The notes beneath the pieces were generated by a model that was given only the letters and a program-made list of their open reading frames with translations, did not search any database and was not told where the DNA came from. Shown piece by piece: positions 27,717-57,956 of a stretch of DNA of 64,000 nt. A program made the position numbers and the translations under genes. The stretch lies in assembly GCA_002105175.1 (NCBI GenBank), contig MCGE01000049.1, forward strand, positions 1-64,000, read 5' to 3'. Position 1 is the first letter of the stretch. The number at the start of each line of letters is the position of its first letter. Source of the stretch: Absidia repens (lineage: Eukaryota > Mucoromycota > Mucoromycetes > Mucorales > Cunninghamellaceae).

Positions 27717-28866
27717 TAGAGGTGACTATGTTCATGTATATACAAAAAAGAGATCGAGAGAGAGACAAAAAAAAAAAAAAAAAAAAAAAAAAAAGAAAGA
27801 GCAGGGAAAAAGGGAAAAAGGGAAAAAAAAAGAGGTAATTTTTTTTTTTTTTTTTTTTTTGGGCGGACTGGGGAAGTATAAGGGTTCTTTCTTTCATGTG
27901 TGGTAAAGAAAAGGAGGAGCTTGAAAAAAAGGGGAGGTATTTTGTTATAAATGCTAGGAATCCACGTGCTATTATTATGTTTGATCGAGAATGATGGTAA
28001 CAAACGCTGATGATGGTAGTACCTCTCATTACCAACATCTCGATACAATGTATATGTTTGGAAGAAGATGGCGGGATTTGTAAATTTTTTAATATTACTT
28101 TTTTGTATGCCCATGCCATGCCCTTCCCCCACCTATAACAATGATGCAGCCTAAGAAAGCGAAAGACTACACTACAGGTTTTTCGGTATTTCAATATGTA
28201 TGAGAAAGTTATTTTTAGTCGCATGACCACGATAAAAAAAAAAAAAACCTGCTCTCTCTTTTAGTCAAAAAAAAAGCCAGACCCGATATCTTTTTTGACT
28301 TTTATGACTGGATGAAGCCATGATAGTAAGGAGTGGGTGGGACTAAAAAGAACGTCATTTATCGAAAAAAAGAAGGAGATTTTTATTTTTAATTGACACT
28401 CGTTTTTTTTTTTTTTTTTTTTTTTTTACGGTAAAGTGAATTTCAACCCTTTTTTAATCTGCTGACGATGTCAAGCAAACACACACACTAAAAAAAAAAA
28501 AACGGGTGTTGTTTGTTTAAAAGGTGTACAGGTTTCAGTGTTGATTGTTGATATTTTTCCAAATAGTTGTTTGAAAGTTTATGTGTGTGTGTGTGTGTGA
28601 GTGTGGGTTAATCTTCATGGAATCAAATACAACTTCTAAAACTGGTAAGATCGCGTGGCTAATCGAGTATTCCAATAGGAGGGCAGGAAAGAAACGTGGC
28701 ACATGGTTGTACAGCGTCTAGTTCCTTTACCCGCTTTTTCTTTTTTTTTTTTTGATATAAATAAACCCACATTGCCCACTTTTTTTTCAATTCTTTTTTT
28801 CTTTTCTTTTATTATTTCTTTATCTTTCTTCATATCAAAAATCTATATTTACACATATTATTCATT
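27717..28866. other. Divergent intergenic region
   Basis: Promoter DNA for the NVJ2-like gene (-) and the small ORF (+). It includes long poly-A/T runs (about 27768-27794, 27840-27860, 28405-28428), a (GT)n microsatellite at about 28581-28600 and TATAAATAAA at about 28755, about 110 bases before the small ORF. No further gene seen. Confidence 0.45.
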
Positions 28867-32096: not shown

Positions 32097-32870
32097 TCAA
32101 AGGTAGCTTGATGCAGTGTCCACTACACGTTGGAACCAACCACGAGAAGGTTGGGCTTTCTTTTCAGAGGCTTGGTGATCGACAAAAGATTGGAAGCTTT
32201 CGGCCAATACATCCAAACCATCAAAGGTGAGATCGAATGAATCGTTGACACGATCTTCTTCACGACTAATCAATACAGTGTGGGCGCCTTGTTTCTTGGC
32301 AGCTTCCAAAGTGGCATGGTTAGAGGAGACCACTGCCAATTCGTTGACATTGTCCAAAGCCAAAAGTTCCGGTACATTTTCAACCACGGAGGCGGAAGAC
32401 GAGGCAGCAGCATCAGAGGAGAATTGAGAGTGCCAGCAGAGACAGCCATAGCGAGCAAGAGACATCATGGTACGAGTCGACAAAGCAGGGGCAACGGCAA
32501 CAGCATACATGTTTGCATTCTTCTTCAATTGACGTACACTAGATACAGCATCACCATAAACATCCAAACGTTCCCAAACAGAGGATAATCCTTGCAATTC
32601 TTCGTGAGTAAATTGGCAGTCCACATGGTGTTCTTTGAGGAGACGGACAAGCACAAGACGGAAGAGTTCCATGTCAGTAGTACGAGATCCAGAGGATTTT
32701 TGCTTTTCACCAATAAATTCAATGTACCAGCGTTCAATTAGTTTACGGCCATCAAGAGCAGCAACAGCACCTTGCTTCTTTTCCACCAATTGGGTCCAAG
32801 CAGTCAATAAAGTACCACGGTAGTCCACAATAGTATCCAAAAGGTCAAATGCAAAAATCTTGACCGAGCC
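32097..32870 (-). other. HAD-like domain at the C-terminus of the giant protein
   Basis: About 240 residues with the order of a haloacid-dehalogenase-like fold: motif I FAFDLLDTIVDY (nucleophile Asp present, +2 residue Leu as in non-phosphatase HADs), a helical cap, a motif-II strand MYAVAVAPALS (usual Ser/Thr replaced by Ala-Pro), and a motif-IV region LAVVSSNHATLEAAKKQG that resembles the VSSN..D of L-2-haloacid dehalogenases but has Thr where the Asp should be. Probably a degenerate or repurposed HAD domain. Confidence 0.6.
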
Positions 32871-35800
32871 AAATGATTCAGGAACCTCGGCAGTTTCAAC
32901 CCAAGCAACAGTCTTTCCTTCAAATGCAATAGATACAGCAGATTCGGTTGTATGTTCGAGAGTCTTTTCAGAATGTTGTCTTGCACGAGTCAAAATCCAG
33001 GAGAGGCGTTCATCCAATGCATGAAGGTCACGGTTTTCGTTGAGGACAGAGATCACTACAGTGAGCTGAGCAATAATCAAAGCACCAACACTATCAAAGC
33101 TATCAAGGGCATGTTTTTGAGCATTGGCAGCGAGGGTCACCAGTTTGGCATCAGCTTGACGAGAATAGACGGTTGTCGAAGTTCGAATGGCTACTTGGCG
33201 TTTAGCATCTTGAATGATCACAGCGCTTTCTTGTTGTGCAGATTCGATAAGACGTTGAATATCTTGATGAGCAGAGGTATCACCACGGGCAATAATAACA
33301 CGGACCTTGGAGAGTAAACCATCAATCCAGCCAGAGATTTGCACCTTGTTTTCTTCCACAGCAGAGGCCAAAGTCTTGGTAGTACAGCTTTGAATTTGTT
33401 CCTTGGTTTCCACGACAGATATTGTTTGTTGCGTCTTTTCAGTAGTAGCAATGTGGATAGCCAGAGTCTTGTTCACTTGTTGTTCAGATACCAATGCGAG
33501 GTTGTCCAATTGGGTCTTGATGTCAACCTTGTTCTTACTAGATGAAGACACACCTTGAGAGACAATGTGGCGAATTTGGTTGGTTTGAGTCTTTGAGAAA
33601 GAGAGAATCCATCCCAAGGATAAAGCTAATGTGGCTGCGTTCTTTGTCGTAGTATCAACTTGAGTAGATTGGGTCTTGTAATTGGTAACTTGAGCTTCCA
33701 GATCCTTGTGAGCTTCAGTAATAATCACATCGATATCAGCAGATACATTGTCACCACCTTGTTGGGCACGCTTGGTAGTCTTTTCGATCAAAGTAGCAAA
33801 CCAGGTATTGATAGTAACCTTGATATTGTTCACCTTGTCTTCTTCAATAGTTTCCACCACTTGTAAAGATTGTTCATGTTCCTTTTGCTTCTTGTCATGG
33901 TGATGTTCCAGAGCAACGCCAGCACCAACGCCAGCAACCACAGCGGCAGAACCCAAAACAACCTTGCCAATATTCGACAAATGATGATGGTCTTGAGTCT
34001 TTTTCTTGTCGGCACCAGAGGACGATTCCTTAACAGTAGCAGCTTCAGCGTGAGAAACAACGACCTTGTTGAAGTCATTCACACTAGCAATCAGAGTGGC
34101 TTGTTGAGATTGTTTGTTTTCCGTGGTAGTTTCGGACACAGTAGTCTTGACAACTTCAATCTGAGTAGCAGCAGTTTTTCGCAACTTTCCAAGTAAAACT
34201 TCGAGTTCTTGAGGGGAGGCATTCGTGGAGTTCTTGATTTCTTCAATCTTCACGGCGATTTCCTTTTCAGCATCAGCAATGACAATCTTGGCATCCGATT
34301 CAACATTGGTACAATCTTCGACTTCCAGGAGGGAGTTGACTTTGTCCACGAGTTTTCCAAACCAGTTTTGCATGGTCACACTTGCATCTTGAGCAGATTT
34401 TGCAACAGCAACGCTAGCAACTAAATATATAAAGATAAAAATAAAATAAAAGATTTGATGAGTACAGAGATCTTTTTATACCAATACATTCATCATTTCA
34501 ATCTTATTACCAATTGCACCAGTCTTCGCAGCAGATACTTTGTCGGAGACTTCGACGAAGGATAAATGAACTTGTTCCTTTCCAGAATCACAGATAGCCA
34601 GCAAGTCCTTGTCTAATTCAACATTCGAAACACCAACTTCATATCGATCCACGGATTTCTTGATTTCGTCCAATTGCAGACCAATAGACGTACGAACAGG
34701 AGCAAGTACGTTTTCCACTTCAACAACAGATACATTGGCAGTAGACGTTGATTTACCGAGCACAATTTCAAGTTCATCTTCAGCTTCCTTCACAGCAGTA
34801 GTAATCTTGGCCTTGGTATCAACACCACCTTCAGTCAACAAGCTCTTGATTCGGACAATAAGACGGCCGTACCAATCAGATGTAGCATTGCGAGTATCTT
34901 CAACAACCTTCACAACGGTAACCTTTTCCACTTCAGTGACAACTGGCTTCGTAGTTACGATTTCGGTATCAACAATGACATCACCCTATATATATAACAA
35001 ACACATAGATCAGTACCAAAAAAATAAAAAAATAAAAAAAGAGTGATCGTGAATGGTAGATCCGTTACTTACTTCAATCTTCTTTTCGGCTTCCTTATGG
35101 TCGTGATGTTTCTTGGCAATAAGAGTTCCAGCAATCGCAACACCAGCAGCAGCAGTTCCAGCCGCAATAGCACCAATGTGAGACTTGTGCTTTTCGACGT
35201 GTTCGTGGATAGTACCAGTAGATTCATCGAGATGGACGTCAATGGAGGTCTTGGCCTTTTCAGTAGCGGCAGTGAGCTTCTTGTTGATCACATCCACTTC
35301 GGTGGTGGTCTTGACAACAGTTTCAACTTCAGTGACTTGTTCCAATACGGAGGTTTGTACCTTTCCAAGAGCGATTTCGAGTTCAGCGTTAGCCTTTTCA
35401 TTGGCAGCCCATCCCTTGTTGGCCTTGTCCTTGGAATCCTTGATAATCACAGTCAATTCTTCACGAGCTTCCTTGGTAATACGTTCGACATCAGTCTTGG
35501 CATCGGCACCACCTTGTTGTAAGCGAGCAGCAATACGGTCGTTCAATGACTTGTACCAACCAAATACGGTCACCTTGACAGTTTCAACCACAGTAGTAGC
35601 ATCCACTATGTCATCATGGTGAACAATTTCCTATTAAAAAAATTCAGAAAATAATGAGTTTTGTATCAAAATATCAGCATGCACACAATTGACTTACTTC
35701 AGCCTTCTTTTCAGCTTCCTTATGGTCGTGATGTTTCTTGGCAACGATAGCGGCACCAACAGCAGCAGCTCCAGCAGCAGCTCCGGCAATAGCACGGACG

Positions 35801-38800
35801 TGAGACTTGTGCTTTTCGACGTGTTCGTGGATAGTACCAGTAGATTCATCGAGATGGACGTCAATGGAGGTCTTGGCCTTTTCAGTAGCGGCAGTGAGCT
35901 TCTTGTTGATCACATCGACTTCGGTGGTGGTCTTGACAACAGTTTCAACTTCAGTGACTTGTTCCAATACGGAGGTTTGCACCTTTCCAAGAGCGATTTC
36001 GAGTTCAGCATTGGCCTTTTCGTTGGCAGCCCATCCCTTGTTGGCCTTGTCCTTGGAATCCTTGATAATCACAGTCAATTCTTCACGAGCTTCCTTGGTA
36101 ATACGTTCGACATCAGTCTTGGCATCGGCACCACCTTGTTGTAAGCGAGCAGCAATACGGTCGTTCAATGACTTGTACCAACCAAATACGGTCACCTTGA
36201 CAGTTTCAACCACAGTAGTAGCATCTACTATGTCATCATGATGAACAATTTCCTAAAAAAAAAAAAATTCAGAAAATGGTGAGTATTCTATCAAAATATC
36301 AGCATGCACACAATTGACTTACTTCAGCCTTCTTTTCAGCTTCCTTGTGGTCATGATGTTTCTTGGCAACGATAGCGGCACCAACAGCAGCAGCTCCAGC
36401 AGCAGCTCCGGCAATAGCACGGACGTGAGACTTGTGCTTTTCAACATGTTCGTGGATAGGTTTAGTGGATTCATCGAGATGGACGTCAATGGAGGTCTTG
36501 GCCTTTTCAGTAGCGGCAGTGAGCTTCTTGTTGATCACATCCACTTCGGTGGTGGTCTTGACAACGGTTTCCACTTCAGTGACTTGTTCCAATACGGAGG
36601 TTTGCACCTTTCCAAGAGCGATTTCGAGTTCAGCATTGGCCTTTTCGTTGGCAGCCCATCCCTTGTTGGCCTTGTCCTTGGAATCCTTGATAATCACAGT
36701 CAATTCTTCACGAGCTTCCTTGGTAATACGTTCGACATCAGTCTTGGCATCGGCACCACCTTGTTGTAAGCGAGCAGCAATACGGTCGTTCAATGACTTG
36801 TACCAACCAAATACGGTTACCTTGACAGTTTCAACCACAGTAGCAGCATCCACTATGTCATCATGGTGAACAATTTCCTATTAAAAAAAATTCAGAAAAT
36901 AATGAGCTTTGTATCAAAATATCAGCATGCACACAATTGACTTACTTCAGCCTTCTTTTCAGCTTCCTTATGGTCGTGATGTTTCTTGGCAACGATAGCG
37001 GCACCAACAGCAGCAGCTCCAGCAGCAGCTCCGGCAATAGCACGGACGTGAGACTTGTGCTTTTCAACATGTTCGTGGATTGGTGCAGTGGATTCATCGA
37101 GATGGACGTCAATGGAGGCCTTGGCCTTTTCAGTAGCAGCAGTGAGTTTCTTGTTGATCACATCGACTTCGGTGGTGGTCTTGACAACAGTTTCAACTTC
37201 AGTGACTTGTTCCAATACGGAGGTTTGCACCTTTCCAAGAGCAACTTCGAGTTCAGCGTTAGCCTTTTCGTTGGCAGCCCATCCCTTGTTGGCCTTGTCC
37301 TTGGAATCCTTGATAATCACAGTCAATTCTTCACGAGCTTCCTTGGTAATACGTTCAACATCAGTCTTGGCATCGGCACCACCTTGTTGTAAGCGAGCAG
37401 CAATACGATCGTTCAATGACTTGTACCATCCAAATACGGTCACCTTGACAGTTTCAACCACAGTGGTAGCATCCACTATGTCATCATGATGAACAATTTC
37501 CTAAAAAAATTTCAGAAAATAATGAGTATTATATATAAATATCAGTAGGCGCACAATTGACTTACTTCAGCCTTCTTTTCGGCTTCCTTGTGGTCGTGAT
37601 GTTTCTTGGCAACAATAGCGGCACCAACAGCAGCAGTACCAGCGGCAATAGCACCAATGTGAGACTTGTGCTTTTCAACATGTTCGTGGATTGGTGCAGT
37701 GGATTCATCAAGATGGACGTCAATGGAGGTCTTGGCCTTTTCAGTGGCAGCAGTAAGCTTCTTGTTGATCACATCGACTTCGGTGGTGGTCTTGACAACA
37801 GTTTCAACTTCAGTGACTTGTTCCAATACAGACGTTTGTACCTTTCCAAGAGCGATTTCAAGTTCAGCGTTCGCCTTTTCGTTGGCAGCCCATCCCTTGT
37901 GTGCCTTGTCCTTGGAATCCTTGATAATCACAGTCAATTCTTCACGAGCTTCCTTGGTAATGCGTTCGACATCAGTCTTGGCATCGGCACCACCTTGTTG
38001 TAAGCGAGCAGCAATACGGTCGTTCAATGACTTGTACCATCCAAATACGGTCACCTTGACTTCTTCAATCACGGTAGTAGCACTGGACACCTTGTCGGCT
38101 TCAACAACCTTGGATTCTTCGGCCTTCTTGGCTTCATCATGCTTGTGTTTGTGTTCCAAAGCAGCGGCCCCAGCAACAATAGCGCCAACGGCAACAGCAC
38201 CAGCGGCAATAGCAGATCCGTGATGATGGTCCTTCTTTTCTTGATCATGATGTTCAACAGTCTTGCCGGATTCAGTTTCAATCACCTTGGTCACCTTTTC
38301 TTGAGTTACGGTCACCTTGAGCTTTTCTTCAGTGTCCTTGGTCAAATGATGAAGCTTGTCAGCAGCAGTCTTCTTGTCAGAGGCAGTGATCACTTGGACA
38401 CCAATGGCATGAGCTTCAACAGTTTGTTCAGTGATGAGAGTCTTGGACTTTTCAACAGCCACAGCAAGTTCTTGGGCAACCTTCTTGTCAGAGGAATTCT
38501 TGATAGCTTGATCCAATTGAGCAAAGATGGTTTCCTTTTCCTTGGTAATGATGACGTTGATTTCTTCAGCAGAGGCACCTTCTTGTTGAGCACGAGCGGC
38601 AATAGAACCAGACAACTTCAACCACCAGGTACGGACAGTTTCGCGGACTTGTTCAACGGTGACAATAGTGACAACGGCTTGAGTCTTGTGGTCATGTTCG
38701 TGTTCATGGGACTTGACGACAGTGGATTCCTATTGTGTGAAAGAAAGAAAGAAAGAAGAAAGAAAGAAAGACGTTGAGATCACTTTCTTGTAATAAAGAT

Positions 38801-41800
38801 TCGATATTTCACTTACGGTTTCCTTCTTTGCCTTTTGGTCGTGATCATGCTTAATGGCAACGCCAGCAGCTACACCAGCGGCGATACCAGCAGCAACTTC
38901 AGTGGCAACCTTAGCAGTGTGGTGATCATGTTTCTTTTCAACGTCGGCTGCAACCTTGTCGACATGAGTGGATTCCTAAATCATATTTTTGAAGAAGAAG
39001 AAAAAATGGTGTGAATATTCAAACGCCGTCATTTTTAAAATAATACAATTGCCTTACCTTAGTATCGCCCTTCACAACCAAACCTTGAGCAACTTCTTCA
39101 GTGACAGTGACTGTAGATTTGATGGTCTTGTCGCATTGGTCGAGAGTAACATGAATTTGTTGTTCGGTAGCCTTGGCTTGAGCCTTCATAGTAGCAGCTC
39201 CACCAGTAGAATCCTTGGCAGCCGCAGCTTGAATACCAATAGCTTGAATTTGAGTGGATTGTTGAGAAACCAAACCCTTTGCCCAGGTCAAAGACGAAGT
39301 GAGTTGTTGAGCGGTAGTGCTTGATCCAGATTTCTTCGCAGTTTCTTCCAACAGGAGGGTGATTTCAGCATTGGACTTAGCGGTGATGGCTTCAATATCC
39401 TTGGCAGCATCGTTTCCACCTTGCTTAGCACGAGCAGACACTTGTTCAATGAGACGAGCAAACCAAGAGGTAACAGTAACCTTCACATAATCAACCACAA
39501 CAACTTCCTTGGTCACGTTGGCAACTTCAGTGGTAGATTTTCCTTGGTCAACAACAACAACACCAGCATGATGTTTGTCGGATTCCTAAATTAAATAGTC
39601 CAAAAAAAATATCAATACCTAAACTTCGAACAGTACCATGGTGTGTATTTTTTTTTTCATACCTTCTTAGCAGCTTCCTTATCATCATGATGTTTCTTAG
39701 CGATACCAGCACCAACAACGGCAGCTCCAGCGACAATCGTACCAGCAATAGCACCAGCATGCGACTTGTGCTTTTCAACATGTTCATGAATAGCACCAGT
39801 AGATTCATCAAGATGAACATCAATGGACGTCTTGGCCTTTTCAGTAGCGGCAGTGAGTTTCTTGTTGATCACATCGACTTCGGTGGTGGTCTTGACAACA
39901 GTTTCAACTTCAGTAACTTGTTCCAATACGGAGGTTTGCACCTTTCCAAGAGCGACTTCGAGTTCAGCGTTAGCCTTTTCGTTGGCAGCCCATCCCTTGT
40001 TGGCCTTGTCCTTGGAATCCTTGATAATCACAGTCAATTCTTCACGAGCTTCCTTGGTAATACGTTCAACATCAGTCTTAGCATCGGCACCGCCTTGTTG
40101 TAAGCGAGCAGCAATACGATCGTTCAATGACTTGTACCATCCAAATACGGTCAACTTGACAGTTTCAACCACAGTAGTAGCATCTACTATGTCATCATGA
40201 TGAACAATTTCCTAAAAAAAAAAAAATTCAGAAAATGATGAGTATTCTATCAAAATACCAGCATGCACACAATTGACTTACTTCAGCCTTCTTTTCGGCT
40301 TCCTTGTGGTCGTGATGTTTCTTGGCAACAATAGCGGCACCAACAGCAGCAGTACCAGCGGCAATAGCACCAATGTGGGACTTGTGCTTTTCAACATGTT
40401 CATGGATTGGTGCAGTGGATTCATCGAGATGGACATCAATGGACGTCTTGGCTTTTTCAGTTGCAGCAGTAAGCTTCTTGTTGATCACATCGACTTCGGT
40501 GGTGGTCTTGACAACAGTTTCAACTTCAGTGACTTGTTCCAATACAGATGTTTGTACCTTTCCAAGAGCGATTTCAAGTTCAGCGTTCGCCTTTTCGTTG
40601 GCAGCCCATCCCTTGTGTGCCTTGTCCTTGGAATCCTTGATAATCACAGTCAATTCTTCACGAGCTTCCTTGGTAATGCGTTCGACATCAGTCTTGGCAT
40701 CGGCACCACCTTGTTGTAAGCGAGCAGCAATACGGTCGTTCAATGACTTGTACCATCCAAATACGGTCACCTTGACTTCTTCAATCACGGTAGTAGCACT
40801 GGACACCTTGTCGGCTTCAACAACCTTGGATTCTTCGGCCTTCTTGGCTTCATCATGCTTGTGTTTGTGTTCCAAAGCAGCGGCTCCAGCAACAATAGTA
40901 CCAACGGCAACAGCACCAGCGGCAATAGCAGATGCGTGATGATGGTCCTTCTTTTCTTGATCATGATGTTCAACAGTCTTGCCGGATTCAGTTTCAATCA
41001 CCTTGGTCACCTTTTCTTGAGTAACGGTCACCGTGAGCTTTTCTTCAGTATCCTTGGTCAAATGATGGAGCTTGTCAGCAGCAGTCTTCTTGTCAGAGGC
41101 AGTGATCACTTGGACACCAATGGCATGAGCTTCAACAGTTTGTTCAGTGATGAGAGTCTTGGACTTTTCAACAGCCACAGCAAGTTCTTGGGCAACCTTC
41201 TTGTCAGAGGAATTCTTGATAGCTTGATCCAATTGAGCAAAGATGGTTTCCTTTTCCTTGGTAATGATGACGTTGATTTCTTCAGCGGAAGCACCTTCTT
41301 GTTGAGCACGAGCGGCAATAGAACCAGACAACTTCAACCACCAGGTACGAACAGTTTCGCGGACTTGTTCAACAGTGACAATAGTGACAACGGCTTGAGT
41401 CTTGTGGTCATGTTCGTGTTCGTGGGACTTGACGACAGTGGATTCCTATTTTATGAAAGAGAATACATGTTAGAGGTGGTCATACCCAGGACAAGACTTG
41501 GTATTATGACTTACGGTTTCCTTCTTTGCCTTTTGGTCGTGATCATGCTTAATGGCAACACCAGCAGCTATACCAGCAGCGACACCAGCAGCAACCTCAG
41601 TGGCAACCTTAGCAGTGTGGTGATCATGTTTCTTTTCAACTTCGGCTGCAACCTTTCCGACATGAGTGGATTCCTAAATGATATTTTTGAGGAAAAAGAA
41701 AAAATGGTGTGAATATTCAAACGCCGTCATTTTTAAAAACTATACAATTGCCTTACCTCAGTATCACCCTTGACAATCAAATCTTCCACAACATCTTCGG

Positions 41801-44800: not shown

Positions 44801-46228
44801 ATCACAGTCAATTCTTCACGAGCTTCCTTGGTAATACGTTCGACATCAGTCTTTGCATCGGCACCACCTTGTTGTAAGCGAGCAGCAATACGGTCGTTCA
44901 ATGACTTGTACCATCCAAATACGGTCACCTTGACAGTTTCAACCACAGTAGTAGCATCTACTATGTCATCATGATGAACAATTTCCTAAAAAAAAAAAAT
45001 TCAGAAAATGATGAGTATTCTATCAAAATATCAGCACATGCACAATTGACTTACTTCAGCCTTCTTTTCAGCTTCCTTGTGGTCGTGATGTTTCTTGGCA
45101 ACAATAGCGGCACCAACAGCAGCAGTACCAGCGGCAATAGCACCAATGTGAGACTTGTGCTTTTCAACATGTTCGTGGATTGGTGCAGTGGATTCATCAA
45201 GATGGACGTCAATGGACGTCTTGGCCTTTTCAGTGGCAGCAGTAAGCTTCTTGTTGATCACATCGACTTCGGTGGTGGTCTTGACAACAGTTTCAACTTC
45301 AGTGACTTGTTCCAATACAGACGTTTGTACCTTTCCAAGAGCGATTTCAAGTTCAGCGTTCGCCTTTTCATTGGCAGCCCATCCCTTGTGTGCCTTGTCC
45401 TTGGAGTCCTTGATAATCACAGTCAATTCTTCACGAGCTTCCTTGGTAATGCGTTCGACATCAGTCTTGGCATCGGCACCACCTTGTTGTAAGCGAGCAG
45501 CAATACGGTCGTTCAATGACTTGTACCATCCAAATACGGTCACCTTGACTTCTTCAATCACGGTAGTAGCACTGGACACCTTGTCGGCTTCAACAACCTT
45601 GGATTCTTCGGCCTTCTTGGCTTCATCATGCTTGTGTTTGTGTTCCAAAGCAGCGGCTCCAGCAACAATAGTACCAACGGCAACAGCACCAGCGGCAATA
45701 GCAGATCCGTGATGATGGTCCTTCTTGTCTTGATCATGATGTTCAACAGTCTTGCCGATTCAGTTTCAATCACCTTGGTCACCTTTTCTTGAGTAACGGT
45801 CACCTTGAGCTTTTCTTCAGTGTCCTTGGTCAAATGATGGAGCTTGTCAGCAGCAGTCTTCTTGTCAGAGGCAGTGATCACTTGGACACCAATGGCATGA
45901 GCTTCAACAGTTTGTTCAGTGATGAGAGTCTTCGACTTTTCGACAGCCACAGCAAGTTCTTGAGCAACCTTCTTGTCAGAGGAGTTCTTGATAGCTTGAT
46001 CCAATTGAGCAAAGATGGTTTCCTTTTCCTTGGTAATGATGACGTTGATTTCTTCAGCAGAGGCACCTTCTTGTTGAGCACGAGCGGCAATAGAACCAGA
46101 CAACTTCAACCACCAGGTACGGACAGTTTCGCGGACTTGTTCAACGGTGACAATAGTGACAACGGCTTGAGTCTTGTGGTCATGTTCGTGTTCATGGGAC
46201 TTGACGACAGTGGATTCCTATTGTGTGA

Positions 46229-46264
<36 letters not shown>

Positions 46265-49200
46265 CGTTGAGATCACTTTCTTGTAATAAAGATTCGATAT
46301 TTCACTTACGGTTTCCTTCTTTGCCTTTTGGTCGTGATCATGCTTAATGGCAACGCCAGCAGCTACACCAGCGGCGATACCAGCAGCAACTTCAGTGGCA
46401 ACCTTAGCAGTGTGGTGATCATGTTTCTTTTCAACGTTGGCTGCAACCTTGTCGACATGAGTGGATTCCTAAATGATATTTTTGAAGAAAAAGAAAAAAT
46501 GGTGTGAAAATTGAAACGCCGTCATTTTTAAAAACTTTACAATTGCCTTACCTTAGTATCGCCCTTGACAACCAAACCTTGAGCAACTTCTTCAGTGACA
46601 GTGACTGTAGATTTGATGGTCTTGTCGCATTGGTCAAGAGTAACATGGATTTGTTGTTCGGTAGCCTTGGCTTGAGCCTTCATAGTAGCAGCTCCACCAG
46701 TAGAATCCTTCGCAGCTACAGCTTGAATACCAATGGCTTGAATTTGAGTGGATTGTTGAGAAATCAAGCCCTTAGCCCAGGTCAAAGACGAAGTGAGTTG
46801 TTGAGCGGTAGTGCTTGATCCAGATTTCTTCGCAGTATCTTCCAACAGGAGGGTGATTTCAGCATTGGACTTAGCGGTGATGGCTTCAATATCCTTGGCA
46901 GCATCGTTTCCACCTTGCTTAGCACGAGCAGACACTTGTTCAATGAGACGAGCGAACCAAGAGGTAACAGTAACCTTCACATAATCAACCACAACAACTT
47001 CCTTGGTCACGTTGGCAACTTCAGTGGTAGATTTTCCTTGGTCAACAACAACAACACCAGCATGATGCTTGTCGGATTCCTAAATTAAAGTCCATAAAAA
47101 TATCAATACCTAAAATTCCAACAGTACCATGGTGTGTATTTTTTTTTTCATACCTTCTTAGCAGCTTCCTTATCATCATGATGTTTCTTAGCGAGACCAG
47201 CACCGACAATGGCAGCTCCAGCGACAATCGTACCAGCAATAGCACCAGCATGGGACTTGTGCTTTTCAACATGTTCATGAATAGCACCAGTAGATTCATC
47301 AAGATGGACATCAATGGACGTCTTGGCCTTTTCAGTAGCAGCAGCGAGCTTCTTGTTGATCACATCGACTTCGGTGGTGGTCTTGACAACAGTTTCAACT
47401 TCAGTGACTTGTTCCAATACAGACGTTTGTACCTTTCCAAGAGCGATTTCAAGTTCAGCGTTCGCCTTTTCATTGGCAGCCCATCCCTTGTGTGCCTTGT
47501 CCTTGGAATCCTTGATAATCACAGTCAATTCTTCACGAGCTTCCTTGGTAATGCGTTCGACATCGGTCTTAGCATCGGCACCACCTTGTTGTAAGCGAGC
47601 AGCAATACGGTCGTTCAAAGACTTGTACCATCCAAATACGGTCACCTTGACTTCTTCAATCACGGTAGTAGCACTGGACACCTTGTCGGCTTCAACAACC
47701 TTGGATTCTTCGGCCTTCTTGGCTTCATCATGCTTGTGTTTGTGTTCCAAAGCAGCGGCTCCAGCAACAATAGTACCAACGGCAACAGCACCAGCGGCAA
47801 TAGCAGATCCGTGATGATGGTCCTTCTTGTCTTGATCATGATGTTCAACAGTCTTGCCGGATTCAGTTTCAATCACCTTGGTCACCTTTTCTTGAGTAAC
47901 GGTCACCTTGAGCTTTTCTTCAGTATCCTTGGTCAAATGATGGAGCTTGTCAGCAGCAGTCTTCTTGTCAGAGGCAGTGATCACTTGGACACCAATGGCA
48001 TGAGCTTCAACAGTTTGTTCAGTGATGAGAGTCTTGGACTTTTCAACAGCCACAGCAAGTTCTTGGGCAACCTTCTTGTCAGAGGAATTCTTGATAGCTT
48101 GATCCAATTGAGCAAAGATGGTTTCCTTTTCCTTGGTAATGATGACGTTGATTTCTTCAGCGGAAGCACCTTCTTGTTGAGCACGAGCGGCAATAGAACC
48201 AGACAACTTCAACCACCAGGTACGGACAGTTTCGCGGACTTGTTCAACGGTGACAATAGTGACAACGGCTTGAGTCTTGTGGTCATGTTCGTGTTCGTGG
48301 GACTTGACAACAGTAGATTCCTATTTTATGAAAGAGAATACATGTTAGAGGTGGTCAAACCCAGGACAAGACTTGGTATTATGACTTACGGTTTCCTTCT
48401 TTGCCTTTTGGTCGTGATCATGCTTAATGGCAACACCAGCAGCTATACCAGCAGCGACACCAGCAGCAACCTCAGTGGCAACCTTAGCAGTGTGGTGATC
48501 ATGTTTCTTTTCAACTTCGGCAGCAACCTTGTCGACATGAGTGGATTCCTAAATGACATTTTTGAGGAAGAAAAAATGGAATGAATATTCAAACGCCGTC
48601 ATTTTTAAAAAATGTACAATTGCCTTACCTTAGTATCGCCCTTGATGACCAAACCTTGAGCAATTTCTTCAGTGACAGTGACAGTAGATTTGATGGTCTT
48701 GTCGCATTGGTCAAGAGTAACATGAATTTGTTGTTCGGTAGCCTTGGCTTGAGCCTTCATAGTAGCAGCTCCACCAGTAGAATCCTTGGCAGCCGCAGCT
48801 TGAATACCAATGGCTTGAATTTGAGTGGATTGTTGAGAAACCAAACCCTTTGCCCAGGTCAAAGACGAAGTGAGTTGTTGAGAGGTAGTGCTTGATCCTG
48901 ACTTCTTCGCAGTTTCTTCCAACATAAGAGTGATTTCAGCACTTGATTTAGCGGTGATGGTTTCAATATCCTTGGCAGCATCACTTCCACCTTGCTTAGC
49001 ACGAGCAGACACTTGTTCAATGAGACGAGCAAACCACGAAGTAATGGTGACCTTGACGTAATCAACCACAACGACTTCCTTGGTCACATTGGCGACTTCA
49101 GTTGTAGATTTACCTTGGTCGACAATGACAAGACCGGTGTGATGCTTGTCAGATTCCTAGAATATAAAAAAAAAAAAAAAAAAAAAAAAAAAGTTCAATA

Positions 49201-50408
49201 AAATTATCCTTGGGACTTATCGCTTTACAACTATTATTTTTTTCATACCTGGTTAGCGGCTTTTTTGTCATCATGATGTTTCTTAGCGAGACCAGCACCG
49301 ACAATGGCAGTTCCAGCGGCAATCGTACCAGCAATAACACCAGCATGGGACTTGTGCTTTTCAACATGTTCATGAATAGCACCAGTAGATTCATCAAGAT
49401 GGACACCAATGGAGGTCTTGGCCTTTTCAGTAGCAGCAGCGAGCTTCTTGTTGATCACATCGACTTCGGTGGTGGTCTTGACAACGGTTTCAACTTCAGT
49501 GACTTGTTCCAATACAGATGTTTGTACCTTTCCAAGAGCGATTTCAAGTTCAGCGTTCGCCTTTTCATTGGCAGCCCATCCCTTGTGTGCCTTGTCCTTG
49601 GAATCCTTGATAATCACAGTCAATTCTTCACGAGCTTCCTTGGTAATACGTTCAACATCGGTCTTGGCATCGGCACCACCTTGTTGTAAGCGAGCAGCAA
49701 TACGTTCATTCAAAGACTTGTACCATCCAAATACGGTCACCTTGACTTCTTCAATCACGGTAGTAGCACTGGACACCTTACCGGCTTCAACAACCTTGGA
49801 TTCTTCGGCCTTCTTGACTTCATCGTGCTTGTGTTTGTGTTCAGCAGCAGCTTCCAAAGCAGCAGCACCAGCAACGATAGCGCCAACGGCAACAGCACCA
49901 GCGGCAATAGCAGATCCGTGATGATGGTCCTTCTTTTCTTCATCATGATGGTCTACAATCTTGCCGGATTCATTATCAACAATCTTGGTCACCTTTTCGT
50001 GAGTAATGGTCACCTTGAGCTTTTCTTCGGTTTCCTTGGTCAAATGATGGAGCTTGTCAGCGGCAGTCTTCTTGTCGGATGCAGTGATCACTTGGACACC
50101 AATGGCATGAGCTTCAATCGTTTGTTCAGTGATGAGAGTCTTGGATTTTTCAACAGCCACAGAAAGTTCTTGGGCAACCTTCTTGTCAGTGGTGTTCTTG
50201 ATAGATTGATCCAATTCGGCAAAGAGGGTTTCCTTTTCCTTGGTAATGATCACGTTGATTTCTTCAGCAGAAGCACCTTCTTGTTGGGCGCGAGTAGCAA
50301 TGGTACCAGTCAATTTCAACCACCAGGTACGAACAGTTTCGCGGACTTGTTCGGAAGAACTAATAGTGACGATATGTTCTTGTTTCTTAACAGAGGAATC
50401 CTATAGTG

Positions 50409-50441
<33 letters not shown>

Positions 50442-53400
50442 GAAGTTTAATAAATGATCTGTCGAGATATGCACAATAATATGAATGGCTTTCAATTTTA
50501 CCTTCTTATCTTCATGTTCATGGACAGCAATGGCTCCAGCGGCGATGGTTCCAGCGGCGATGGCACCAGTATGATGATGATGGCCTTCACCCTTGGAGGA
50601 ACCATGATGGGAGTGGATCACGCCAGTGGATGCATCAATATGGGTGTGGATAGAGGACTTGGCCTTATCAGCAATACCAGTGAGCTTCTTGTGAATCACA
50701 TCGACATCAGTAGTGGTCTTGACAACGGTTTCAACTTCAGTGACTTGTTCCAAAACCGAGGTTTGCACCTTGCCGAGAGCCAGATCGAGTTCAGCGTGAG
50801 CCTTTTCGTTGGCAGCCCAGCCCTTATGAGCCTTGTCCTTGGAGTCCTTGATCACTACAACCAATTCCTCACGAGCTTCCTTGGAGAGTCGTTCGATATC
50901 AGTCTTGACGTTATCGCCACCTTGTTGCAAACGAGCGGAGACACGGCCGTTGAAGCGGAGGTACCAGTGGTAGATAGTGGTCTTGATTTCTTCAATAGTA
51001 ACCGTGACGACAGTGGTAGAGTGATGGTCTTGTTGTTGAGTGGTGGTCACACCAGTGGATTGTTTATCAGCATCATGATGTTGATGGTGCGCAACAGCGG
51101 CGACGGCAGCACCAGCAGCAGCGATAGCAGCAGTACCGGCAGCGACCTTAAGACCAGTATGGTGATCGTGATGTTGTTCAGCAGCATGGTCGACCTTGAT
51201 TGCTTCAACAGCATCGATAGTGGCGCCTTGTTCAATGGAAGCAGTGATGCTTGCGTGAGTTTGTTCCTTGGTGTCAGTTGTAGTATTGGCAGTAGTGGAA
51301 GAGGCACGTTTACCAAAGACAGGTGTGGAGAAGCTCCATTGGATGAGGGTGTATTTGGATTGATGTTCCTTGGCGGATACGAGCTCGACAGTGGTGTTGT
51401 GCTGCAATTCGTTTCCGGCATAACCCAAAACCAAAAGATCCTGATCAATTTCTTCACTGTGGATATGTCCATCGACGTTCAAGTTCCATGCGTATCCTTC
51501 GGTGGCAGAAACCAAAACCAAAGAAGTGCCTGTTCAAAAAGGAAAAAAAAATTAGTATTTTAAGGACCCTCCCGGTATGAATTTTTTTAAAAGAAAAAAA
51601 GTACCTGAGATGCCAATAGCTTGAGAAGATCCGTAATTTACCAAGCGTTGATCGCGCCATGTCCACAATTGCTGCTTGAAGTGAGTGAATGAAATCTTCT
51701 TGATGACGAGAGCAGATTTCTTTTCATCTTGAGCCAATACATATTCTTCACCATTTACAACAATCTTGATAAAGAACCAAGGGGAAGTAGGGAAGTAAGC
51801 ACGGCGGCGAGTAATGGTCCAAGACTTGGTGGTGGTGGTGGTAGTAGTCGTGGTGTGTTGTTCACGAATCCAGGTATGGGCCTTGGTACGAGCTTGAGTG
51901 GCTTCGATAGCGGAATGTTCGTCAGACAATTCAGGGGTATGCAATTGCCAATGTTGACCGGCTTGAGAGACATCCCGAGTAGTTTCCAAAAGATGAGCAC
52001 CAGAGGAAGAGCGGACAAAGCGAAGATAGTAGACAACAGTGAGAATATGTAAAGTGATCACACCAGAAGAATCGATAGCAAAGACTTGGTCCTTTTCTTC
52101 ATTAGTGTCCACAAGAATCCAGCGTTGAGCTATTGAAAAAGAAAAGGTGAGTTTGCTTGTTCTATATATAAATCTGCCTCTTTTTTTTTTCTTTTTTTTT
52201 TGTACTCTCTTCACTTACTCTTTTGACAAAGCACCAAACGCAACATGTAGCGGTAGTTGATCAATTGACCATCTACAAAGGTCCACAAGAATCGCTTATG
52301 ATCATCATGTTCGCCAAGTTCTTGAATACCAACAGAGTGATTCTTTTCAGTACCAGCAGCCAAGAACAAGTTGTCTTCCCCGTAGCTAATCATAAACCAG
52401 TTGTCGGCCCATTCAGAGGTAATAGTAGTGTGACGATGCAACTTGTGGAACCACTTATAAGACAAGGCAGCAATGGCAGTAGTAGCAACAGCAGCAGTGG
52501 CAGCTCCAGCGACGATGGTAGAAGTGGAGTGACCAGCAGGAGGAGTAACGATCTTGGCGCCACCAGAGGAGGATTCGGGTGACACGGGGATCATACTAGG
52601 AATGATGATTTCCCAACGTTGTTCAGGACGAGGATACTTGGACTTGAGGTGAGTCTTTTCTTCTTGCACGTAAACATCGATATAGGTGTGCTTTTGAGAG
52701 CGTTCCAGTTCCTTCACAGAAAGTACAAGAGAGCGGCGCGTCTTGAGATAGAGATAACCTTCCAAACCCCAGGCCCATTGTTGATCATCGGCGGAGCTGG
52801 CGTCGGGCTTTTGCTTGGACAAGTGGACACGATCACCGGCAGTGGTAACTTCATCAGAGGAGCCATCCAGGACTAAGGAATCACCCTTTAAATTCACAAG
52901 GAATCCGTCACGGAAGGACCAGAGTTGGCTAGCAAAGTCGGTGGATCGAATACGAGCGAGACTGACCTTGGCGTCTTCCTTAATACCATCGCCTTCAATA
53001 TCCAAAACATAACCGTGGAGATCACTCTTGATGAAGAAGTAGCCAGTTTCAGGGAAGGTGGCAGCTTGATGAGTCTTGAATCGAACAATCTTTTCAAATC
53101 CAGAAGGAACATAACCAGCAGCAAGTACAAAGGAGTCTTTCTTGGCTTCACGACGAGAGCGGCGCTTAGAGCTAGTGGCACTTGTACTAGAGAGACCAGA
53201 GTCAGAAGCTGACGCATCAGTCAAAGACTGTAAAATTCCAAAAAAAAAAAAAAAAAAAAAAAAGTGAATAATGTAGTTCAAATAAAATGTATTGCCAATA
53301 TTATATTTACCTTATCATCATCTTCTGTTTCCAAAAGCTCATCATCACTGTCGCTTTCAGAGTCATCATCAGTAGTGTCGGCTTCAGAATCGGATTCGTC

Positions 53401-56400
53401 GGCAGATTCATCTTGCTGTTGGACATCCAACTTGTGATCTTCGCAGCTTTCCAATTCACCGTCAATAATAGCGCCAGCAACGGCACCAGCAGCCACAGCA
53501 GCAGCAGCTCCAGTAGCCACAGAGGAAGAAGTGGTGGTGGTGGTGGTTTTGCGGTAGACAGGGGTAGAGAAAGCCCAGCGCATCCATTCTTCAGATACCA
53601 AGCTAGCAACTTGCTTGTTTTCAGAGACGGCACGACTGACCTTGATGGACTTGAGACCAATTTGGGCACCTTCGACGGAAAGTCGTTCCTTGTTAGCCAC
53701 AGTGACGATCATACGAGCATTGGATTGCGAATGAATTTCACCATGAACACCGAGAGCAAAGAATTGGCTATCGTCCATAGACACTTCACGGACACACGCA
53801 GGTGCTTGCAAACCTTCTTCGATCAAAACATTCTTTCCATGCTGTTGAATGTCCAAAGCCAAACCAGTTTCAGCATTGATCAAATGATCATCACGGAAGA
53901 TCCACAATTGCCACTTGTGAGCCTTGAAGTTCATGGGTCGGAGGGTGACTTGATGTTCCTTGACATTTTCAGCAATAGGCTTGGATTCCACAGTCAAAGC
54001 GTAGCGTTCAGAACCAGCGCCCATACGAATAAAGAAGGGATCTTTAGGGAAGAGACCCCAGCGACGTACAACGGTTTTCTTGACAGTGCGTTCGTAGGTT
54101 TGACGGTCAGAGTGAGTTTGGGTGGCTTCACCAACACCATCCACAACAATATCAGTGGTAGACTTGTTCGCGGTAAGACCAATGGAAATGACAGAACCGC
54201 TACGGTTACGGAAGACAGGAGTGGCAAAGGTCCATTGTTGTTCAAGATGATCCAAACTTCCACGAGCCACAAGAGACAATTCCACACCATCGTGAGCCTT
54301 GGTGGTCTTCTTGGGAGCAAGGACCAAACCAGATCGAGAATCAGGGTGAATATGACCATCCACAGATAATCCCCACATTTGGTTCTTACGTTGACGACGC
54401 AAGAATTTTTCGTTCCATTGGATAATGTTAGACCCTTGGGAAAGTTGACCACCAGCAACATCGATCACGAAATCGGTAGCGAAGTTCACCAAACACTGAT
54501 CATCACGAGTGTGCCAAAGTTGTTGTTTGTAGTTCTTGAAGTCGAGTTTGGCAAGGACCAATTTGGCACCCTTCTTCGAGTTGGAGGCAGTAAGCACAAG
54601 GCTGGAATCTTGCTTTGAGCGAATGAAGATCCATTTCTTGGGGAAGACACCATAGGTTTTGGTAACCAATTGGTGTTGAGACAAGCCTAGAAAAGAAAGA
54701 CAAGAAATTAGCTTTTTTTAATCCTATCATCGTTTTTCCCATAATTTGTAATAAATAACTATAAAAAAACTTACTTCGTTGAGAGGCCATGGACAAAATA
54801 TAACGACGGAATCGGGTAAGAACGTCCTTTTCATAATGACCATAGAACACAGACCAAGAGATATGTTGACGAGATTTCTTAGTATCGACCAATTCAATGA
54901 CATCGCGACCACCTAAGCCAAGAGAACTGTTGGTACCAGAAACAATAGATCCATCAGTCTTGATTGTCCATTGTTGACGTTCATCAGCACGACCATCTTT
55001 TCCGACATGTTGAGATCGGATTTCCAAGCGAGTTCCATCAGCCAAATCTATTAAACAAAACAAAAAAAAAATCAGAACCCAATAAAGAATTGTTGGCCCT
55101 TTTTTTTTTTTTTTTTACCTTGAGAATGCAAGACAAGGCCAGTAGCCACATGAACAAGATACCCGTTCTTGAAACACCATTGGAAAGCAGAGTGTTCTTC
55201 AACAGTCAAGGTACGTACAGTAAGGCCAGATAAAGCTTCGGACTTAGAGGGGACCAAAGCATCACCGTTGGGACCAGTGATGAAGAAGGTTTCTTGAGGC
55301 CAGATCGCAACAGCAGAAGAGAGTTTTTGGACACGGGAGGAGGTAGCAGAGCCAGCGCTGATATTGCGCCATTCTTTCAAAACAGCCATCTTCCAAGAAA
55401 CCAACACTTGCACGCGATGTTGGACGGTGAATTCAGGAATCAAGAAGCCCCATCGAGAATTTTGCACTTGATCGACATGTGAGAGTACTAGTTTGTTGTC
55501 CTTTGGTACCAAAGCAAGCGTGGGTTCACTAATATGGATAAAGTGACCATCCACAGTCAATGACCAAAGTTGTTGCTTATGCTGATTTTGTTGGTTGGCT
55601 TGTTTCACAGTTTCACCCGCAGACAAACCTAAAATTATACACATATAAAAAAAAAGTGGGTTCAGTTAATTCATCCTTGATTCATCCATGTGTTTCATAA
55701 TAAATAATTAAGGTTTTGTCCACTAATAAAATAAACATTCTTCCTTACCATTCACGTCAATAGCGAGTTGAGTTTCATAATTGACGATAGTTCCACCAAC
55801 ATAGGTCCATAATTGAGCATGCCAGTTTTCACGATCCAAAGTAGCCATATGGATGCTTTGTCTGTCTTCATGAGCGGTCAATACTTGAGGAGATTCCAAA
55901 GTGGCTCCAGGCAAGGAGCGAATAAAGAACCAACCACGAGGATATTGGGCATATCGATGAACCACGGTTTTCTTGATAGTAGTAGTTGTGGCAGCTTTGG
56001 AGGCTGGTTAAATAAACAAAAGCATACGATGAGTTTCTATCGTTCCGATAAAGGGTTTATTTTTCCCTCACTTTTTTTTTTGTTCCACTTACATTGTTTC
56101 TTTTTGAAGACGGGCAAAACAAAGTTCCAGCGTTGTTCCTTGGCACCATTGGAGTGTTGTTCAGACAAAAAGACACGGGATCGCACCTTTTCATTTTCTT
56201 GCACAGTCAAAACAAACTTGTTTTTGGCCTTCACGTAGATGCTGCCATCCATGTTCAAAGCCCATTGTTGGTTGTCGTTGTCCTTTTTCTTTTCCTTGTA
56301 TTGGCAAAGAAGAGCACCATTGACAATAGAACCTGAAAAAAAAATGAGGGGAAAAAATCAGTATCATTGAGAATAGTAACATAAATTCGGCCTTTTTCTT

Positions 56401-57956
56401 TTTGGTGTCTTACCGCCTTTGATATCCAAAACCATGCCGGAGGCCTTGTTCACCAAAAATCCATCCTTGTATTTCCATAATTGACGAGAGTAGTTGGCAG
56501 TATCCAGACGAAGAGCAGTGACTTGAGCGGCCAAAGCACCAGATTCTAAGACGGACAAGACCAAACCTTGAGATTGACTTTTGACAAAGAACCAGCCTTC
56601 AGGGAATTGACCTTTGGAGGTATCGGCCACGTTGCTGGTAGTGGTACGTTTCTTGAAGACAGGCAAAACGACTTGGAAGTTTTGATGTTGGTGTTGTTTG
56701 TTGCTTGTTTTTTGGACGTAAATATGAGCGCCTTCACGATTGAGACTAAACCAGCTGTCCTTGAAACCAAGCACCCAGGTAGAGTCGTTTTTCAAACACA
56801 ATTGCCCGCCCTTGGTCCATTGCCATTCTTGGTGTGCAGAGCTGGAAGGAGAGGCTTGGCATACATGAGTGTCATCCTTGAGATCTTCCACAGTGAGCAA
56901 TAAACCAGATTTTTTGTTGATGATATGATGAGTAGATTCATTGAAGGACCAAAGTTGACTTTCATAACCAACTTTACGGAAGGAATCAATGGTCAAACGA
57001 GTGCCGGATTTGGAAGGTGTGTTGGCTTCAGTACCCACATAGTAGCCGGTTGTCACCGATTTCAAAAAGAAATCACCAGTAGGGAAAGAACCCGTCACCA
57101 CAGACTTGGTACCTTCATCTTGATCATCCACACTTGAAGATACAGAAGCGGTGTCTAAATGAAGAAACGGTAATAATAGTAATAAATTGGAATTAGTATT
57201 TTTTGATAGTACCATGCATATTAATAATAGCAACAATAAAAACGCCAATTTGTGTATAAATAATAAATAATAATAAAATAAAAGAAGATTTCTTACCATC
57301 AAGACTTCCAATAGTACTGGCACTAGCACTATGCTTGAGGCTACCAACGGAGCTAATGCTATTGCTCTTTTTCAAACTTGCCACAGAGCTATGAATGGAG
57401 GAAGATTGCTTGACCACAGGTAATACGAAATCCCACCGTTGTTCCTTTCTGTCCAAATGTTTCTTGTCAGCCAATTGCAAATGGACATGAAGACCTTCAC
57501 GACGAGAGAAGAAAGATTCCTTGATACCCAACACCAAAGTTTCATGAGTTTTGACATAAATATGGCCATGTTCAGATAAACCAAAGGATTGATGATGATC
57601 CTTAGTAGTAGCAGCAATTTGTTGGACAACATCACTGCCCGTTTTGACCTTGCCTATAATATTATTAAAAAAAAAAAAGAGTCAATTATCTCCCTTCGAT
57701 TTTCCCCTCTTTTTTCCTCCCTTTATGTTTGTTTACCATGAGCGATATCCATCACTTGGCCAGTCTTCTTGTTCACAAGGCGTTGCTGATCATCTGTACG
57801 CCAAAGTTGAGCATCCGCCTCCTTTGCACGCAAAGAAGATAAAACGACGGGAGACCCAGCAGAGTGAGAGCCATCTTCAATAGATAAAACATAACCATTT
57901 TGTTGGTTTTTGATAAAGAACCACCCATCAGGGAAAGATTCAACCTTTTCAAACAT
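32097..57956 (-). CDS. Giant 35-exon modular protein: beta-trefoil array, helical-module array, HAD-like C-terminus
   Basis: One gene of about 25.9 kb. Exons: 57737-57956, 57297-57653, 56414-57154, 56093-56332, 55749-56003, 55119-55628, 54775-55047, 53311-54686, 52219-53227, 51605-52129, 50502-51529, 49249-50400, 48629-49156, 48390-48548, 47154-48320, 46552-47079, 46310-46468, 45055-46217, 44437-44985, 43836-44363, 43595-43732, 42361-43527, 41757-42284, 41515-41673, 40282-41445, 39663-40211, 39058-39585, 38817-38975, 37566-38729, 36946-37500, 36323-36877, 35698-36252, 35073-35630, 34511-34985, 32097-34420. They total 23,045 nt, one short of 7,682 codons because of a one-base deletion in exon 18. 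Order: ten QxW beta-trefoils, about 28 Trp-headed helical modules with Gly/Ala-His linkers, then a HAD-like domain. There is no signal peptide, so it is probably intracellular. A TATATA lies about 115 bases upstream. Function is unknown; a structural or scaffold role is only an inference. It could in principle be expressed as several transcripts. Confidence 0.8.
32920..34985 (-). repeat. Divergent terminal helical modules (D, E1-E3)
   Basis: Four further Trp-headed modules with the same spacing but low identity: SDWYGRLIVRIKSLLTEGG, QNWFGKLVDKVNSLL, NTWFATLIEKTTKRAQQGG, SGWIDGLLSKVRVIIARGD. A His-rich/Gly-Ala segment (KVVLGSAAVVAGVGAGVAL) sits between E1 and E2. These old copies probably reflect the ancestral module set before the A/B/C expansion. 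Confidence 0.7.
35073..38729 (-). repeat. Supra-unit 6: modules B5-A8-A9-A10-A11-A12
   Basis: Exons 29-33. One B-A exon followed by four single A exons (555, 555, 555, 558 nt) that are almost identical at nucleotide level, with introns that also match (ATTTTCTGAA...GTAAGTCAATTG). This is a recent expansion of the A exon alone at the 3' end of the array. Confidence 0.8.
38735..38771. repeat. (GAAA)n microsatellite in intron
   Basis: Tetranucleotide GAAA tract in the intron between the last linker exon and module B5. A related, longer tract sits in the equivalent intron at 46226-46264. Confidence 0.85.
38817..41445 (-). repeat. Supra-unit 5: modules B4-A6-A7-C5-linker
   Basis: Exons 25-28 (1164, 549, 528, 159 nt), matching supra-unit 3 including the additional A exon. 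The intron after the linker has the GAAA microsatellite type. Confidence 0.78.
41515..43527 (-). repeat. Supra-unit 4: modules B3-A5-C4-linker
   Basis: Exons 22-24 (1167, 528, 159 nt), the same composition as supra-unit 2 and near-identical in both exons and introns. B3 starts about 4.79 kb from B1, showing a higher-order period of two supra-units. Confidence 0.78.
43595..46217 (-). repeat. Supra-unit 3: modules B2-A3-A4-C3-linker (with frameshift)
   Basis: Exons 18-21, about 2.7 kb because of an extra A exon. Exon 18 is 1163 nt where its counterparts are 1164 or 1167, owing to a one-base deletion near 45756. The linker exon is shortened to 138 nt. A3 ends in the HHDHKEAEKK type, which precedes another A. 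Confidence 0.78.
45750..45762 (-). other. One-base deletion breaking the giant gene's frame
   Basis: Here the plus strand reads CTTGCCGATTCAG; the five other B modules read CTTGCCGGATTCAG or a close variant with GG. The missing G shifts the frame and leads to a stop at about 45558. Either an assembly/sequencing indel in a near-identical array or a real disabling change. Confidence 0.85.
46226..46264. repeat. (GAAA)n microsatellite in intron
   Basis: Eight to nine GAAA units in the intron before module B2, paralogous to the tract at 38735-38771; the other three equivalent introns lack it. Confidence 0.85.
46310..48320 (-). repeat. Supra-unit 2: modules B1-A2-C2-linker
   Basis: Exons 15-17, offset about 2.1 kb from supra-unit 1. 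Exon sizes 1167, 528 and 159 nt, all multiples of three with phase-0 ends. A2 ends in the HHDDKEAAKK type, which always precedes a C module. Confidence 0.78.
48390..50400 (-). repeat. Supra-unit 1: modules B0-A1-C1-linker
   Basis: Exons 12-14. B0 (WWLKLTGTIATRAQQEG) and A1 (GWYKSLNERIAARLQQGG) share one exon; C1 (SWFARLIEQVSARAKQGG) and the His-rich linker are separate exons. B0 is the most divergent B copy, as expected for an array edge. The intron after A1 has a poly-A/T run of about 27. Confidence 0.75.
50502..51529 (-). repeat. Last trefoil lobe plus first helical module (A0)
   Basis: This exon carries the end of the tenth beta-trefoil, then a Gly/Ala-rich segment (AAGTAAIAAAGAAVAAVA) between His-rich flanks, then the most divergent A-type module (IYHWYLRFNGRVSARLQQGG). 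It ties the lectin-like half to the helical half in a single exon, which is the main evidence that 32-58 kb is one gene. Confidence 0.75.
51310..57956 (-). repeat. Array of ten ricin-B-fold (QxW) beta-trefoil units in the giant protein
   Basis: Ten units of about 150-200 residues, each opening with a [FWY]P..WFFI[KR]-like strand (FPDGWFFIK, FPTGDFFLK, FPEGWFFVK, YPRGWFFIR, WPQETFFIT, FPKKWIFIR, FPKDPFFIR, FPETGYFFIK, WADNWFMIS, FPTSPWFFIK). Most then show up to three QxW motifs: QLW before a DG.LVN..TGLVLDI strand, QQW before a DG.I strand, and QRW/QQW before a [FL]..PVF end. Three QxW motifs per unit is the ricin-B/beta-trefoil signature, a carbohydrate- or protein-binding fold. No catalytic toxin chain is present. 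The units are divergent from each other, so they are much older than the downstream repeats. Confidence 0.75.

Follow-up and report, generated by a model that had tools for sequence, protein, structure and literature searches.

A giant gene on the minus strand

The window analysed here is a stretch of 64,000 nucleotides (nt) of the mucoralean fungus Absidia repens (contig MCGE01000049.1, positions 1 to 64,000), and it holds a giant gene whose conceptual protein joins ten beta-trefoils to 28 arrayed helical modules, with a C-terminal domain resembling haloacid dehalogenases (HAD). A preliminary description of the window had proposed one gene of 25.9 kb with 23,045 coding nt, a single frame break explained by one visible deletion, and about 7,680 residues comprising ten beta-trefoils and about 28 helical modules, with a HAD-like domain at the end. 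Our splice model, obtained by dynamic programming with both ends finished by hand, agrees with this proposal: its 35 exons sum to 23,045 nt, which leaves the total one base short of whole codons, and the conceptual protein has 7,681 residues with an X placed at the frame break. Because the model was built with the earlier gene ends known, though not the exons, the agreement is not fully independent. The 34 introns measure 65-142 nt (median 82), and their uniform GT..AG borders are no evidence since the model imposes them.

The frame break lies in exon 18, which is one base shorter there than the sister exon to which it was aligned; three further sister exons concur. The break affects a single member of a set of near-identical repeats and may be a sequencing error or a real lesion.

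Continuity of the gene is indicated by two exons. Exon 11 links the end of trefoil 10 to the first helical module, and exon 35 links three divergent helical modules to the HAD domain, each in a single open frame. Both junctions recur within single open reading frames (ORFs) of database relatives, that of exon 11 in P0007 and that of exon 35 in P0001 (78% identity over 99%). These bridges argue against several neighbouring genes, and at the level of genomic DNA the locus reads as one minus-strand gene.

Ten beta-trefoils related to mdaA-1

We identified ten ricin-type beta-trefoils in the N-terminal part of the protein (Table 1). Each matched a local profile with an independent E-value of 2.6e-35 or better, versus 1 for the eleventh-best match; as the profile was made from the same ten trefoils, it serves for counting and not for proof. 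The assignment itself draws on Pfam Ricin_B, which matched exons 3 and 8 over the gathering cut-off and exon 9 below it, with no match in exon 11 among the four trefoil exons scanned, and on an AlphaFold2 (AF2) model of exon 8, which is consistent with the fold.

The closest structure was PDB 6LCI ('mdaA-1'), which we take to be a Gellin domain. Trefoil T1 shares 103 of 156 residues with it (66%) within the first 160 columns, from a common start methionine, and 111 of 176 overall (E 1.2e-65), versus an E-value of only 5.4e-07 for the next-best PDB chain. Exons 3 (E 1.6e-18) and 8 (E 6.3e-18) also matched 6LCI. Ten trefoils being a hallmark of Gellins, this number together with the identity of T1 led us to file the gene as a Gellin.

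The trefoil half further contains two hydrophobic stretches resembling the linkers of the helical array described below. A hydrophobic Ala/Gly stretch between T7 and T8 is followed by an acidic Asp/Glu/Ser tract that runs from about residue 1292 (base 53409) through the end of exon 8.

We searched the gene's own genome (47.4 Mb on 79 contigs) with six queries; only the best candidates were scored, so the counts from these searches are lower bounds. Two trefoil queries revealed no second full trefoil gene among the candidates scored. Literature searches returned no match for 6LCI, nor for the combination of trefoils with a giant protein. An 802-residue trefoil protein filed under a Paenibacillus metagenome-assembled genome (P0010) is 48-49% identical to exon 8; it is probably a fungal contaminant, and no relatives of it were confirmed in the prokaryote genomes (GTDB contigs scanned) or viral contigs.

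A helical array with histidine-flanked hydrophobic linkers

By motif, the array comprises 28 helical modules, arranged in a super-repeat of order C-A-(A)-B. The six unit pairs with matches longer than 1,500 nt are 90-96% identical in DNA, which suggests recent growth of the array. Across an alignment of 25 of the 28 modules, the sole invariant residue is a tryptophan in helix 1. An AF2 model of one type-A module forms a four-helix bundle (predicted local distance difference test score 82.8, predicted template modelling score 0.74), whose helix 4 extends into the linker with falling confidence.

Sequence searches assigned the module to no clear Pfam or PDB family. The weak matches were to apolipoprotein (E 0.0012), to sieve-element-occlusion proteins (E 0.0096) and, as best PDB profile, at E 0.044; the sieve-element-occlusion match is not taken as a sign of kinship. 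A structure search with Foldseek returned generic bundles only, with talin and vinculin at E 0.37 or worse; the likeness to talin, vinculin and apolipoprotein four-helix bundles is one of general shape. Exon 12, which encodes two modules, is matched by relatives P0002-P0005 at 63-86% identity over 85-98% of its length, indicating that the module pair is real.

A pattern search of the helical half (at least 15 consecutive A/G/V/I/T/S/L/M residues) identified 26 hydrophobic Ala/Gly linkers with His-rich flanks. In the whole protein, 29 hydrophobic peaks (19-residue mean of at least 1.6) occur, versus a mean of 6.2 and a maximum of 12 in 200 shuffled versions. Twenty-six of them belong to the helical/HAD half. 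Of these, 25 coincide with linkers and the remaining one lies within the final helical module, leaving one linker without a peak; of the three in the trefoil half, one lies inside trefoil 9. Histidine averages 6.1 per 20 residues in the linker flanks, about 20-fold the 0.29 found away from linkers, with 1.0 for the whole half. This concentration suggests a pH or metal switch, under whose control the linkers might hold on to membranes at many points at once. The His/Ala-Gly linker is present at eight places in the genome.

A probably inactive HAD-like end

The last 257 residues matched TIGR01428 (haloacid dehalogenase type II) with 48.3 bits (E 1.2e-12), and relative P0001 did so with 53.7 bits, both below the equivalog cut-off of 125.4. 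The matching PDB chains represent 12 distinct sequences and carry the names epoxide hydrolase, cis-epoxysuccinic hydrolase or haloacid dehalogenase; the best E-value was 1.7e-07. Like these enzymes (TIGR01428, PDB 8WBM), the C-terminal 200 residues keep the Asp of what we take to be motif I; unlike them, they have replaced the presumed motif II Thr/Ser and motif III Lys, as aligned to two near-identical targets. With these residues replaced, no catalysis is expected, and the HAD end is probably inactive.

Gellin-type segments upstream of HET domains

Beyond the contig of the giant gene, copies of its segments formed at least seven clusters, confined to contigs C33 and C26 among the candidates scored, and all seven lie upstream of a place encoding a HET domain (PF06985) on the same strand. 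Four clusters are clear (C33 330-335 kb, C33 339-345 kb, C26 435-437 kb and C26 448-449 kb) and three are weak: C33 358 kb (31-37% identity), C26 441 kb (pieces at 46-59% identity) and C26 453-454 kb, where mainly the linker region matched. Being related copies, they do not represent seven independent events. At the DNA level, the first C33 copy is 86.9% identical to the giant gene (4,978 columns) and the second 84.7% (4,515 columns), whereas the C26 helical piece reaches about 80%. The HET genes on C26 are preceded by helical modules, pieces of exons 10-11 or linker-like pieces, and one of them has its junction within a single exon.

Gene models were made for four of the seven clusters (C33a, C33b, C26a and C26b; Table 1). 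The splice program is built to avoid stops, and its coding score was raised by 0.25 per codon, letting all four models run through the HET region; their splice details are for this reason less sure than the open frames. The C26a model begins at an internal methionine, without a leader exon. Pfam confirmed the HET domain in three ORFs, those of C33a, C26a and one adjoining the C33 358 kb cluster. In C33a and C33b, most exon lengths of the Gellin part are near those of the giant gene. Synonymous divergence (dS) between these two is 0.175 in the Gellin part and 0.172 in the HET part, and this equality indicates that fusion probably preceded their duplication.

Genome-wide, at least 150 places encode a HET domain; of 171 candidates, 150 were scored, and each of these exceeded the Pfam cut-off. 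They are concentrated on certain contigs, among them C29, C33, C49, C50, C26 and C14. The giant protein differs from HET proteins in showing no such domain, as none of these 150 scored matches lies on its contig, C44. A telomere repeat pattern sought across the genome gave no match. Four other HET loci (L035-L038) showed no Gellin trefoil or helical segment in the first 330 ORF residues. The HET ORF of one of them, L038 (C14:428769-431288), does carry Ala/Gly linkers flanked by His, resembling those of the array, and showed no other Gellin segment.

This abundance fits earlier reports from Mucorales. A HET expansion of unknown function has been described in Lichtheimia corymbifera, with HET absent from every other zygomycete genome sequenced by that time (PMC4133162); multiple HET copies were later reported from Apophysomyces (PMC5604411).

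Features of the window and neighbouring genes

Coordinates of all features are collected in Table 1. Elsewhere in the window, positions 12846-18674 and 25272-27725 contain neighbouring genes for a TPR39/Iml2-type protein, an Alg9-like mannosyltransferase and an MMM1-domain protein.

Table 1. Features of the giant gene (positions in the window) and of related HET genes (contig positions where given); aa, amino acids
Feature	Position	Strand	Length, content or basis
Giant gene, likely Gellin-type	57956 (start ATG) to 32097 (stop)	minus	splice model: 35 exons, ~7,681 codons
Ten ricin-type beta-trefoils (Gll-like), aa 7-1913	57938-51297, introns included	minus	local profile, Pfam, PDB 6LCI
Trefoil T1	57938-57400, introns included	minus	local profile mapping
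Trefoil T2	57089-56643, introns included	minus	local profile mapping
Trefoil T3	56609-55999, introns included	minus	local profile mapping
Trefoil T4	55947-55414, introns included	minus	local profile mapping
Trefoil T5	55302-54821, introns included	minus	local profile mapping
Trefoil T6	54645-54202, introns included	minus	local profile mapping
Trefoil T7	54051-53545, introns included	minus	local profile mapping
Hydrophobic Ala/Gly stretch (aa 1246-1273), then acidic tract	53547-53311 (approximate)	minus	between T7 and T8
Trefoil T8	53056-52595, introns included	minus	local profile mapping
Trefoil T9	52414-51909, introns included	minus	local profile mapping
Trefoil T10	51794-51297, introns included	minus	local profile mapping
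Exon 11	51529-50502	minus	trefoil/helical junction
26 hydrophobic Ala/Gly linkers, His-rich flanks	51146-33909	minus	pattern search of helical half
28 helical modules	51041-32862	minus	motif: 1 first, 12 type A, 5 type B, 6 type C, 4 divergent
Exon 18 with frame break	46217-45055, break near 45,760	minus	sister exons intact there
Exon 35	34420-32097	minus	helical/HAD junction
HAD-like (haloacid dehalogenase type II) C-terminal domain	32870-32097	minus	TIGR01428, PDB alignments
C33a chimera			2,291 aa; seven trefoils, then HET; open-frame model
C33b chimera			2,347 aa; seven trefoils, then HET; open-frame model
C26a chimera			1,405 aa; type A, B and C modules followed by HET, joined within a single open frame of 949 aa
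C26b chimera			1,021 aa; model with HET preceded by degenerate helical pieces at 35% identity
Neighbouring seven-trefoil + HET gene models	C33:330076-337682 and C33:338965-347038
HET genes after Gellin pieces	C26:437166-432735, 442228-438690, 449151-448500, 454628-453184

Discussion

In Gellins, some of the trefoils unfold under flow and join into sheets, and hydrophobic motifs grip membranes; when Gellin is lost, wounds bleed. The Gellins of Mucorales were reported by Nguyen et al. (Current Biology 2021, doi 10.1016/j.cub.2020.10.016), a study cited in PMC12712441, according to which these proteins bring about protoplasmic gelation.

The preliminary description had recognised no named family for the full architecture, a view that the match of the trefoil half to mdaA/Gellin overturns. 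The structural role it suggested survives in spirit, with protoplasm gelation at wounds replacing the septa, cell cortex or organelle surfaces then envisaged. Its phrase 'apparently cytosolic' overlooked the 26 His-flanked linkers and the two stretches of the trefoil half, which together suggest membrane contact. The gene resembles Gellins in its ten related trefoils and in the hydrophobic stretches of its trefoil half; the 28-module array, its linkers and the HAD-like end may set it apart from the Gellins described so far.

We consider it likely that the gene is a Gellin with an enlarged, probably membrane-binding C-terminal half; we propose that its Ala/Gly-zipper-like linkers stay hidden in the resting protein and enter membranes after wounding. 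Such a giant Mucorales-type protein would set escaping protoplasm into a gel once a hypha is cut. Pulling, or a change in histidine charge through acid or metal released on wounding, would expose the linkers, which could then insert into vesicles and organelles, so that one molecule may anchor numerous membranes in the clot. The role of the HAD domain would probably be that of an inactive binding or capping domain.

Three alternatives bear on this interpretation. That the array is partly an assembly artefact, or that a real frame break produces a shorter or broken allele, is unlikely. The near-identity of the units and the break in exon 18, at a site intact in its sisters, would fit such a view, but the units differ at 4-10% of sites, beyond usual sequencing error, and P0002-P0005 support the module pair, neither of which fixes the number of units.

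We regard as decidedly unlikely a giant scaffold with a non-Gellin function, in which the trefoils reflect shared ancestry and the helical/HAD half, for example, tethers organelles in undamaged hyphae. The helical array, which makes up about 70% of the protein, matched nothing of named function, and tethers too have tandem four-helix bundles, talin and vinculin having come up in the structure search, if only at the poor E-values given above. Against this stand the first trefoil, so close to mdaA-1 from the same methionine, the retention of all ten trefoils, and the fact that the gene is the only Gellin candidate seen in the genome with the two trefoil queries. Finally, adjacent trefoil, helical and HAD genes misread as one, a reading to which the frame break and a continuity known here from genomic DNA alone lend some colour, are hardly credible and we reject them, because exons 11 and 35 bridge the parts in frame and one relative keeps each bridge.

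Alongside the likely Gellin, the chimeras allow a tentative proposal, possible though on the doubtful side, that wound-clotting is wired into cell-death immunity in this fungus through Gellin segments, either seven trefoils or three helical modules together with their linkers, captured upstream of the TIR-related HET domain in HET genes. Chimeras would enter the wound gel, where sheet formation would crowd their HET domains and trigger local cell death; the His-flanked hydrophobic linkers of the array would serve as a wound-pH or metal switch. Alternatively, the chimeras may be integrated decoys guarding against attack on Gellin. A source that names both integrated decoys and HET domains mentions such decoys solely in connection with plant and fungal NLRs as a whole. 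The literature searched contained no report of Gellin-HET fusions, which is not proof of their absence.

Retention of the chimeric frame is supported from T4 on, where C33a and C33b show 366 differences and no stops versus 14.3 expected at random. Both copies match the giant gene more closely in their exons than in their introns (0.902 versus 0.841 in C33a; 0.883 versus 0.845 in C33b). One observation speaks against the proposal: between C33a and C33b, introns are at least as alike as exons (0.898 over 432 columns versus 0.885 over 3,751), so that amino-acid constraint since the fusion is moderate at most. The ratio of nonsynonymous to synonymous divergence between them, a simple Nei-Gojobori count, is 0.46 (0.38-0.57) in the Gellin part and 0.37 in the HET part.

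Flow-driven clotting of cytoplasm is recent and little-explored biology, and the repeated His-flanked hydrophobic linkers offer a specific candidate way for a clotting protein to grip membranes. The role of unannotated stretches beside HET domains is an open question (PMC10197012) on which the Gellin-HET chimeras bear. These chimeras suggest that wounding and programmed cell death may be connected in early-diverging fungi, a group in which HET genes have been counted (PMC4133162, PMC5604411).
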